Positions 54,105-56,593 of a stretch of DNA of 64,000 nt are shown piece by piece. Where the stretch lies: positions 1 to 64,000 of the forward strand of contig CADBEA010000008.1 in NCBI GenBank assembly GCA_902793635.1. The letters run 5' to 3'. Source of the DNA: an uncultured Erysipelotrichaceae bacterium. Its GTDB lineage: Bacteria; Bacillota_I; Bacilli_A; Erysipelotrichales; Erysipelotrichaceae. The notes under the pieces are model-generated. The model ran no database searches. It saw nothing but the letters and a program-made list of their open reading frames with translations, and was not told the origin of the DNA. The translations under genes were made by a program, and so were the position numbers. Numbering within the stretch: position 1 is the stretch's first letter; each line of letters starts with the position of its first letter.

Positions 54105-54130
54105 AAAAGCCATCGTGTGAGATGGCTTTT
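54105..54130. terminator. Bidirectional terminator
   Basis: AAAAGCCATC-GTGTGA-GATGGCTTTT, 10-bp stem between the convergent pduL and HD-domain genes. Confidence 0.85.
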
Positions 54131-54594
54131 CATTTCAGATCAAACTCTTCACACAGTGCCTGATGGCGCTGTTTTTCTTTATCCTTGACAGGTTTGGAAG
54201 GATCGTGGAAACAGTGATGGATGACATCGGCGTCTTTCAGTACTTCATCATACGGACTGTCAGTGACGTGCTTGTCGTCGTGATGATAGATCATCGAGCA
54301 GATCAGTTCGTTTTCTTCCTCGCTCGTCTGATTCAGTTCGGCAAGATACGTCTTCGCCAGTTCGGCGCCGCGGTGGGCATGGTCTTCATAGCTGCCGGAA
54401 AGATAGGCCGCCATGTCATGCATCATCGCTGCCATGGCCGGCAGTTCCGGATCCATGCCGCGTTTTTCAGCGATCAGGACAGCCGCCAATGACACGCCGT
54501 TGAGATGAATGACAGCGGAAGTTTTCTTTTCTTCGTCGCTGACTTTCTGCAGTTCGCGGAAAATGATCGCCCGCAGGTCTTTCAGTCTGCTCAT
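54130..54594 (-). CDS. HD-domain hydrolase
   Basis: 154 residues. Metal motifs of the HD superfamily: AVIHLNGVSLAAVLIAEKRG (His), AAMMHDMAAYLSG (HD) and MIYHHDDKH, then DADVIHHCF (final Asp). HD proteins of this size hydrolyse nucleotides or other phosphate esters; the substrate is unknown. Its start overlaps the serine acetyltransferase stop by 4 nt (ATGA), so it is a stable member of the cysteine operon in this genome although no role in sulfur metabolism is evident. Confidence 0.8.
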   Translation of the reverse strand: MSRLKDLRAIIFRELQKVSDEEKKTSAVIHLNGVSLAAVLIAEKRGMDPELPAMAAMMHDMAAYLSGSYEDHAHRGAELAKTYLAELNQTSEEENELICSMIYHHDDKHVTDSPYDEVLKDADVIHHCFHDPSKPVKDKEKQRHQALCEEFDLK

Positions 54595-55427
54595 GAGTTC
54601 TCCTTCTGGTCATAGTTGCGGTAGACGATGGTGCTGTGCGGCGGCACGGAATTCAGCAGCCAGACGTTGCCGCCGACGATCGAGTTGTCACCGATCACGG
54701 TGTCACCGCCGAGAATCGTCGCGTTGGCGTAGACAATGACATGATTGCCGAGATCCGGATGACGTTTGCCGCCTTTGACAGGCAGGCCGTTTTCGTCGAG
54801 ATCGAAGCTTTTGGCACCGATCGTGACACCCTGATAAAGCTTGACATGGTGACCGATCACGGCGGTTTCACCGATGACGATACCGGTGCCGTGGTCAATG
54901 CAGAAATACTCGCCGATCTTCGCACCCGGGTTGATGTCGATACCGGTCTTCTCATGGGCGTATTCCGTCATGATACGGGGAATATAGGGAACCTTGAGAT
55001 CATACAGTTCATGGGCGAGACGGTAGATGCAGATGGCGTAGAAGCCGGGATAGCAGAGGATGACCTCCGCTTTCGACTTGGCGGCCGGGTCACCGTCGTA
55101 GATGGCCTGGATGTCGGTGCAGATCAGATGCATGACTTTCGGCATGCGGCTCAGAAACTCTTCCGTCAGTTCTTCCGAAACGGAAGGGTCAAGGTCGTCG
55201 AGATCACGGGCAATGGCGATTTCATAGGTCAGATCACCGATCAGCGTCGCCAGCGAAGTCTCCTGGGTATAATCCTGAAAACGGTAGAAATCAGGCAGTA
55301 AAAGCAGCTGCAGGCGTTTGATGATGCTGAGAATGCGCTTGCGGTCCGGCTTTGGCTTGCGGGTCGCGATGTTCGTGTCACGCTCCGCTTCGATTTCTTT
55401 CAGAAGTTCGTTATTGTATACTCTCAT
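54591..55427 (-). CDS. cysE: Serine O-acetyltransferase
   Basis: 278 residues, EpsC/CysE type. N-terminal helical domain, then a left-handed beta-helix with hexapeptide repeats: TGIDINPGAKIGEYFCIDHG, TGIVIGETAVIGHHVKLYQG, VTIGAKSFDLDENGLPVKGG, KRHPDLGNHVIVYANATILG. The catalytic His lies in IDHGTG and the second in KRHPDLG. Makes O-acetylserine from serine and acetyl-CoA. Starts 2 nt after cysK, with GAGGAATAAAG overlapping the cysK end. Confidence 0.94.
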   Translation of the reverse strand: MRVYNNELLKEIEAERDTNIATRKPKPDRKRILSIIKRLQLLLLPDFYRFQDYTQETSLATLIGDLTYEIAIARDLDDLDPSVSEELTEEFLSRMPKVMHLICTDIQAIYDGDPAAKSKAEVILCYPGFYAICIYRLAHELYDLKVPYIPRIMTEYAHEKTGIDINPGAKIGEYFCIDHGTGIVIGETAVIGHHVKLYQGVTIGAKSFDLDENGLPVKGGKRHPDLGNHVIVYANATILGGDTVIGDNSIVGGNVWLLNSVPPHSTIVYRNYDQKENS

Positions 55428-55429
55428 CT

Positions 55430-56365
55430 TTATTCCTCGGCAAACATTTTCGTGGAAAGGTAACGGTCGCCGGAATCCGGCAGGATCACGACGATTTTCT
55501 TGTTTTCGTTTTCCGGCAGTTTCGCGAGTTCAATAGCCGCATGCAGGGCGGCACCGCCGGAGATGCCAATGAGGACACCCTGGGTTTTTGCGAACATCGC
55601 GCCATCCCGGATGGCGTCATCGTTTTTCACTCTTACCACTTCATCATAGACGGAAGTGTCCAGCACGGAAGGGATGAAGCCGGCGCCGATACCCTGAATG
55701 GCATGCGGACCGGGCTGATCACCGGATAATACAGCTGAGCTGTCAGGTTCCACGGCGATGACGCGGACAGCCGGATTCTTTTCCTTCAGATAGCGTCCGG
55801 TGCCGGTAATCGTACCGCCGGTGCCCACCCCGGCCACCAGCATGTCAACCGCGCCGTCCGTATCCTGCCATATCTCCGGACCGGTCGTGTTATAGTGGGC
55901 TTTCCAGTTGGAAGGATTGTCAAACTGGGCGGGAATGAAGGAATGCGGGATGCCGGCTGCCAGTTCTTCGGCTTTGGCGATCGCGCCTTTCATGCCAAGT
56001 GTTCCGTCGGTCAGAACGATTTCAGCACCATAGGCCTGGATCATGCGGATGCGCTCCGCTGACATCGTGTCCGGCATGACGATGATCACCCGGTAGCCGT
56101 GCGAGATGCCGACCGCCGCCAGACCGATGCCGGTGTTGCCGGATGTTGGTTCAATGATCACGGAACCAGCCTGCAGACGGCCGTCTTCCTCCGCGTCCAG
56201 GATCATCTGCAAAGCCACCCGGTCCTTGATGGAACCGGTCGCGTTGACGAATTCCATCTTGCCGTAAAGCACTGCCTTAAGACCAAACTGCTGTTCGATG
56301 GCCCGCAGCTCAAGCAGCGGCGTGGAACCGATCAGCTGTTCCATGGAAGTATAAATTCTGCTCAT
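55430..56365 (-). CDS. cysK: Cysteine synthase (O-acetylserine sulfhydrylase)
   Basis: 311 residues, fold type II PLP enzyme. GSIKDRVALQMI carries the PLP Lys, EPTSGNTGIGLA binds substrate carboxylate, VAGVGTGGTITGTGRYLKEK binds phosphate, and GISGGAALHAA is the final motif. Converts O-acetylserine and sulfide to cysteine. AAGGAGG lies before the ATG, right after a terminator hairpin in a leader of about 160 nt that holds a short Cys-codon-rich reading frame. First gene of cysK-cysE-HD. Confidence 0.95.
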   Translation of the reverse strand: MSRIYTSMEQLIGSTPLLELRAIEQQFGLKAVLYGKMEFVNATGSIKDRVALQMILDAEEDGRLQAGSVIIEPTSGNTGIGLAAVGISHGYRVIIVMPDTMSAERIRMIQAYGAEIVLTDGTLGMKGAIAKAEELAAGIPHSFIPAQFDNPSNWKAHYNTTGPEIWQDTDGAVDMLVAGVGTGGTITGTGRYLKEKNPAVRVIAVEPDSSAVLSGDQPGPHAIQGIGAGFIPSVLDTSVYDEVVRVKNDDAIRDGAMFAKTQGVLIGISGGAALHAAIELAKLPENENKKIVVILPDSGDRYLSTKMFAEE

Positions 56366-56381
56366 TGTATCCTCCTTGATT

Positions 56382-56404
56382 GAAAAAACCGGGTATGTCC
56401 CGGT
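56382..56404 (-). terminator. Terminator hairpin in the cysK leader (candidate attenuator)
   Basis: On the minus strand ACCGGG-ACATA-CCCGGT followed by six T. It lies between the leader promoter and the cysK ribosome site, with no gene to end before it other than a short leader frame. The 5' arm CCGGG could instead pair with CCCGG at 56458-56462 inside the leader. Confidence 0.75.
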
Positions 56405-56429
56405 CAGTTGTCAGTGATACAGATCGTCA

Positions 56430-56513
56430 TTACAAAACATCCTGTTCCTGAACAGTGCCGGGTAAACTCGGTATGCGGCGACAACATGCATTGTAATACA
56501 GACCTGAAATCAT
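56430..56513 (-). CDS. Candidate 27-residue leader peptide with tandem Cys codons
   Basis: Reading frame MISGLYYNACCRR... of 27 codons, ending in TAA 26 nt before the terminator hairpin. AAGGA lies 8 nt before the ATG, an ideal distance. Codons 10-11 are TGT TGT (56481-56486), as expected of a peptide through which ribosomes sense charged tRNA-Cys. The Cys codons themselves (GTTGTC, 56480-56485) can pair with GACAAC (56407-56412) just 5' of the terminator. An overlapping frame from 56520 also contains four Cys codons but its start is too close to the ribosome site. No homologue search was possible. Confidence 0.55.
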   Translation of the reverse strand: MISGLYYNACCRRIPSLPGTVQEQDVL

Positions 56514-56533
56514 CTTTCATTTCCTTTTTTTTA

Positions 56534-56561
56534 ACTTTATCACTTTGCCAAGGAGCGTCAA
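56534..56561 (-). promoter_or_regulatory. Promoter of the cysK leader transcript
   Basis: On the minus strand TTGACG, 16 bp, TAAAGT; start of transcription near 56527. Confidence 0.6.
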
Positions 56562-56593
56562 GCGATATGTTCATGGCTGCTGTAACGGACATT

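Follow-up and report, generated by a model that had tools for sequence, protein, structure and literature searches.

In a gut bacterium of the Solobacterium/Erysipelotrichales group, ribosome stalling on two cysteine codons appears to switch on the cysteine-making genes. Based on sequence comparison and folding predictions, the leader of cysK is very probably a ribosome-mediated transcription attenuator, with charged tRNA-Cys as its signal and cysK-cysE as its target. The leader of about 160 nt, which consists mostly of a short reading frame and two hairpins, lies on the minus strand of the window, the 64,000-nt stretch analysed here, on contig 8 of a draft genome of 2.43 Mb. Among named relatives the nearest is a goat-ileum MAG, Solobacterium sp. 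RGIG2362, whose CysK is 93% identical. The sequence features of an attenuator are found together: a Cys-run frame led by a Shine-Dalgarno (SD) sequence, an intrinsic terminator, a mutually exclusive antiterminator, and an antiterminator arm just past the footprint of a stalled ribosome. The features, from promoter to operon, are as follows.

56534..56561, minus strand: sigma-70-type promoter TTGACG-16-TAAAGT with TG ahead of the -10, from the sequence; block kept in relatives
56561-56556, minus strand: -35 element TTGACG
56539-56534, minus strand: -10 element TAAAGT, 16 nt from the -35
56522..56526, minus strand: SD sequence AAGGA of the leader frame, 8 nt ahead of the ATG
56430..56513, minus strand: leader peptide frame of 27 codons plus TAA, MISGLYYNACCRRIPSLPGTVQEQDVL (ATG 56513-56511, TAA 56432-56430)
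56481..56486, minus strand: tandem, putatively regulatory Cys codons TGT TGT, codons 10-11
56458..56462, minus strand: antiterminator 5' arm CCCGG, 18 nt past the Cys codons and 21 nt past the first of them
56412-56407, minus strand: GACAAC, able to form 6 bp with the Cys codons
56399..56462, minus strand: predicted antiterminator, a long imperfect helix closed by the pair CCCGG:CCGGG, -23.3 kcal/mol by folding
56403-56399, minus strand: terminator 5' arm CCGGG
56383..56405, minus strand: intrinsic terminator, stem GACCGGG/CCCGGTT (56405-56387), loop ACATA, six T (56388-56383), -10.7 kcal/mol
56371..56377, minus strand: cysK SD sequence AAGGAGG
55430..56365, minus strand: cysK, cysteine synthase A (TIGR01139, 418 bits, above the curated cut-off)
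54591..55427, minus strand: cysE-like serine O-acetyltransferase, 2 nt after cysK (PF06426)
54130..54594, minus strand: HD-domain protein overlapping the end of cysE (PF01966)

Every element named in the initial annotation, including the SD-led 27-codon frame, TGT TGT and the six-T terminator, was found in place on checking the sequence. The separate promoter it had proposed also lies where it had been put, and transcription would start near 56527. Both the -35/-10 block and the Cys codons are kept in the nearest relatives (L072/L154, L003 and L004), where the surrounding sequence has diverged. The terminator ends 5' of the cysK SD sequence, which is located outside the stem. For the window on its own, the promoter is unremarkable (2 sites in a scan, 3.1 expected) and the arm pairing of this single leader is not significant (p=0.14); short frames with a Cys pair arise by chance in 9 of 318 blocks of 400 nt. 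Directly 5' of the -35, a further block at 56562-56573, GAACATATCGC, is kept in L072, L003 and L004 between diverging flanks and is a possible operator or upstream promoter element.

Downstream, the cysE-like gene has TIGR01172 as its best NCBIfam match, with 163 bits below the cut-off of 211 for that family. The HD-domain gene probably shares the operon with cysK-cysE. The leader would control a cysteine-making operon and seems to travel with it: cysE follows cysK in most leader-bearing relatives.

From the elements, their conservation and spacing, the covariation of the arms and the folding predictions we infer that the leader is translated, that ribosomes stall on it, that transcription terminates before cysK, and that the system responds to cysteine. 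RNA polymerase would start near 56527 and a ribosome would begin the 27-codon leader. With ample Cys-tRNA the ribosome would pass the Cys codons and move through the CCCGG arm towards the stop codon; its passage would break the antiterminator helix, allowing the terminator at 56405-56383 to fold and transcription to stop just before cysK. If Cys-tRNA is scarce, the ribosome would wait at the first TGT with its footprint ending just before CCCGG (56462-56458). The free arm could then pair with CCGGG (56403-56399) before the 3' arm of the terminator is made, and the polymerase would read on into cysK-cysE.

For comparison, DNA upstream of cysK was extracted from 70 further genomes or species of the genus. 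An own transcription unit was defined by at least 130 nt between cysK and the long frame upstream, giving 39 distinct leaders. Detection and terminator scoring were custom-built for this analysis; the detector requires consecutive Cys codons inside an SD-led frame 6-60 codons long, and a T-run GC hairpin downstream of that frame. It found frame and terminator in 28 of the 39 leaders, compared to 3 of 299 control genes (Fisher p=1e-28, uncorrected for relatedness; all p-values given here are optimistic, the sequences being related). One of the three control positives is a metY-like gene with a Cys-rich leader (L137). Where cysK is closely packed behind another gene, the combination occurs in 1 of 26 cases. 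Relatives retaining the terminator without the frame or without its Cys codons would have spoken against the proposal of the initial annotation; the opposite is observed. By eye the number rises to 32 of 39, four of the eleven detector negatives having the parts: L016 and L175 have no SD and carry a -10 just 5' of the ATG, and L174 and L180 have a weaker stem. The remaining seven cysK genes with their own unit have no Cys leader, which is thus dispensable. A GC stem with T-run stands between frame and cysK in 30 of 31 genus leaders scanned, L180, where a weaker one is visible by eye, being the sole exception.

The leader peptides diverge, as in MSEFIRYSACCCRNV..., MTAMLTNTCCCCKKNARRCR, MKIVTVFTAVCCCMYHTGIHLA and MKNNVAVLNCCCCFNSG..., and further examples (MISGLYYNACCRRIP, MKIVTVFTAVCCCMY, MTAMLTNTCCCCKKN, MKNNVAVLNCCCCFN, MKYTMNCCCMHCCKC) have little in common beyond the Cys run. 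The run itself, two to six consecutive codons in the relatives, is the one constant. Nearly all frames in the relatives are preceded by an SD sequence. L016, L026 and L175 appear leaderless, with the -10 box ending a few nt 5' of the leader ATG; they resemble mycobacterial polycysteine frames, yet retain terminator and antiterminator. By comparison of the sequences, the combination of elements and its conservation lie far beyond chance.

The pairing of CCCGG with the CCGGG arm of the terminator, likewise proposed earlier, is backed by the position, covariation and predicted folding of the arms. In 30 leaders the best complement of the terminator 5' arm lies 7-19 nt after the Cys run; its position next to the run, as opposed to other parts of the leader, is significant (p=7e-8). 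In 27 of 29 leaders, 15-23 nt separate the first Cys codon from the antiterminator core. Judging from the footprint size, a ribosome that waits with this codon in the A site would expose the RNA from about that point, so the spacing matches stalling there. The arms change together, as in CCCGG/CCGGG, ATACCGGG/CCCGGTGT, CTCTCGG/CCGAGAG, GAAACCGGGCTC/GAGTCCGGTTTC and ACGACCGGATA/TATCCGGTCGT, and a leader's own arms score above arms swapped between leaders (p=5e-5). RNAalifold on a MAFFT alignment of 20 leaders returned only a 4-bp helix between the antiterminator arm and the terminator 3' arm. This result is uninformative because the arms change in sequence and shift in position, and because CCGG is self-complementary; little in the alignment is conserved apart from Cys codons and arms.

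Partition-function calculations give a mean probability of the terminator 5' arm being held upstream of 0.77 with the ribosome stalled, 0.34 with the ribosome at the stop codon, and 0.57 with the spacers shuffled (mononucleotide shuffles). All 28 leaders conform to both inequalities, predicted sequestering in the stalled state always exceeding that with the ribosome at the stop. For the window leader the values are 0.85, 0.44 and 0.65, respectively. Its stop codon begins about 25 nt beyond CCCGG, so that the arm stays unmasked and sequestering falls only from 0.85 to 0.44, which counts against the model; according to the folding, a ribosome at this stop would open the middle of the antiterminator rather than mask the CCCGG arm. 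Taken together, the conserved Cys run, covarying arms, spacing and folding support the earlier suggestion that stalling for want of Cys-tRNA could prevent termination.

A second suggested pairing, between the Cys codons and GACAAC, forms 6 bp in the window leader and is not conserved: across the family, complementarity to the Cys region is no greater than expected (combined p=0.45), and we reject it as a general second structure. The same family-wide test therefore gives no sign of a conserved protector (1:2) hairpin of the trp type, and the leader falls outside the four-segment trp/his subtype. An untranslated leader is consequently predicted to read through in most species. The system looks like a three-segment attenuator in which termination would need translation.

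A Cys leader could instead act on translation or via Rho, freeing the cysK ribosome site or blocking Rho, with the hairpin being secondary. Such arrangements have precedent, since actinobacterial Cys leaders come without obvious terminators (PMC1262725) and translation attenuation is the mode cited for the M. smegmatis ones (PMC13236596); within the family, L235, L239, L245 and L268 have Cys frames without an obvious terminator. We nevertheless consider it improbable here, as a GC stem and T-run separate frame and cysK in the window and nearly all scanned leaders of the genus, the terminator stops short of the cysK SD, and covariation links its 5' arm to the arm of the antiterminator. It is also very unlikely that the frame is incidental or encodes a small functional Cys-rich protein, with the terminator unregulated or control exerted by a protein such as a CymR-like repressor at the promoter. 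The chance frequency of Cys-pair frames given above and the presence of Rrf2 proteins (the CymR/IscR superfamily) in many relatives would fit this explanation. In the source genome, it is a second cysK, not the window locus, that has an Rrf2 gene next to it, with a product that matches IscR/CymR chains. However, only the Cys run of the peptide is conserved, and the spacing and the covariation of the arms, explained by a stalling ribosome, would be left unexplained. Moreover, two genomes (G002, 91% complete, and G035, 98% complete) carry the leader without any Rrf2 match, indicating that the attenuator is independent of such a regulator. In another family of the order, Rrf2 proteins were found in 24 of 24 genomes searched, several beside cysK, and the cysK leaders scanned there contained no Cys-run frame.

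That an unrecognised riboswitch or T-box-like RNA senses cysteine or the tRNA directly is barely conceivable, even though a Cys T-box precedes cysK-cysE in C. perfringens (PMC2940859). The absence of a T-box noted in the initial annotation holds: no Rfam family, T-box (RF00230) included, matched anywhere in the 64-kb window at the gathering score, and relaxed thresholds gave nothing beyond chance-level matches in the leader. The leader is, besides, mostly filled by frame and hairpins, with conservation largely confined to Cys codons and arms. We thus retain the ribosome-mediated attenuator as the preferred reading.

Beyond the genus, the architecture recurs in three other genera of the family (L220-L227). 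Where cysE stands alone in the genus, it is not preceded by a Cys leader. A covariance model of the leader, built from the 20-leader alignment and with 50 candidates per genome scored across the genus, retrieved the known cysK leaders and the type of the second cysK and no further targets. Four marginal matches (E 0.025-0.044) are attributed to chance, since none of them is a Cys leader upstream of a gene. For leaders of the second-cysK type (L002), a pattern search across the phylum yielded nothing; the pattern was too strict and missed even its own genome. Comparison of the leader with phage gave no match.

The second cysK of the source genome, 61% identical to the first (L002 1160-1380; G000:C1:107580-107800), has its own Cys-rich leader MKRITLNSTNKQMMCCRVLCSRACCMAGVFACAPQ and a terminator, next to a divergently oriented IscR/CymR-like Rrf2 gene. 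Leader and neighbouring regulator together suggest double control of this gene. In a Lachnospiraceae MAG (L137 1339-1560), a metY-like sulfhydrylase gene is preceded by the leader MTSRNITVDFRMCNCRMCFSRACQYGQVHSCCAPCTDR, an 11-bp antiterminator CTCCCGGGCAT/ATGCCCGGGAG and a terminator. L137 and L002 share the segment SRAC / TCCCGGGCAT, which suggests a common origin or transfer. In four Synergistales MAGs (L106, L127, L128, L148), frames that end in a Cys run, such as MLNHRTFKAIFEAVYCCCPFTF, lie some 80-115 nt ahead of cysK; most have no evident terminator. A Ruthenibacterium MAG (L121, minus strand, about 4116) has the Cys-rich leader MARCCETCTMCCGCACV... and a strong terminator ahead of a cysE-like gene, and a MAG labelled Treponema (L085 1481) has another such leader, MKYFFEKLIRENFRNGVMCLCCCLHY, ahead of a metY-like gene. 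Short Cys-run frames with no obvious intrinsic terminator, such as MKRKRMCCC and MTIRQMCCCWCMCTR, stand before cysK in L235, L239, L245, L249 and L268 as well as in Gemmiger (L083, L096); these may act on translation, via Rho, or be due to chance.

Glimpses of this kind, namely the metY gene of L137, the second cysK, the Synergistales cysK and the Ruthenibacterium cysE, are the basis of a wider reading, for which we see an even chance: Cys-run leaders would be widespread and partly mobile sensors of Cys-tRNA, in Bacillota and elsewhere, that take the place of T-box and CymR control, with three segments, no protector hairpin and termination that needs translation. If the attenuator is real, it adds to CymR, CysR and the T-box another way of regulating this operon by this signal, conserved across the genus and present in other genera of the family. 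The roughly 40 variable leaders then offer a natural set for testing what spacing and arm strength an attenuator needs. The attenuator also suggests a regulatory role, in place of a protein product, for the unannotated Cys-rich micro-ORFs that gut bacteria carry before cysK, metY and cysE.

Stalled ribosomes also select antiterminator over terminator in the enterobacterial trp and his attenuators; the family described here differs from them in that its leaders conserve no protector (1:2) hairpin. Canestrari reportedly treated the polycysteine leader ORFs of Actinobacteria in 2020. The mycobacterial ones are leaderless, whereas the window frame is SD-led. As the initial annotation had noted, Cys-rich leaders are known from actinobacteria, where Cys-codon runs in short frames before cys genes were predicted in Mycobacterium, Propionibacterium and Bifidobacterium (PMC1262725). 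Those leaders are reported without terminators and were proposed to be Rho-dependent or translational; the window leader shares the Cys run and, with its intrinsic terminator and antiterminator, falls outside that class. Close in design is uORFC-8-2 of Rhodobacterales (PMC8632094), a short upstream frame with tandem Cys codons and an intrinsic terminator for which ribosome-mediated attenuation is likewise predicted. It belongs to Alphaproteobacteria and precedes cysS instead of cysK-cysE, and its Cys codons (about 14-15) lie in stem 1, whereas codons 10-11 of the window frame are covered by no conserved stem. Within the same order, His attenuators are described in six Erysipelotrichales species, and also in Peptostreptococcaceae and the B. 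cereus group (PMC9413887); they share leader peptide, antiterminator and terminator with the window leader, but use histidine codons and control the his operon. For the cysteine synthesis genes of Bacillota, the control described is by CymR-type regulators, CysR or Cys T-boxes; the C. perfringens T-box serves the same operon, responds to uncharged tRNA-Cys and ends transcription prematurely, yet its RNA reads the tRNA directly, without a leader peptide (PMC2940859). A Cys leader peptide in Bacillota, before cysK or elsewhere, was not reported in the literature searched, which took in few subscription papers. As far as can be seen, the mechanism is that of the textbook and the amino acid is known from elsewhere, while the operon and the phylum are new.
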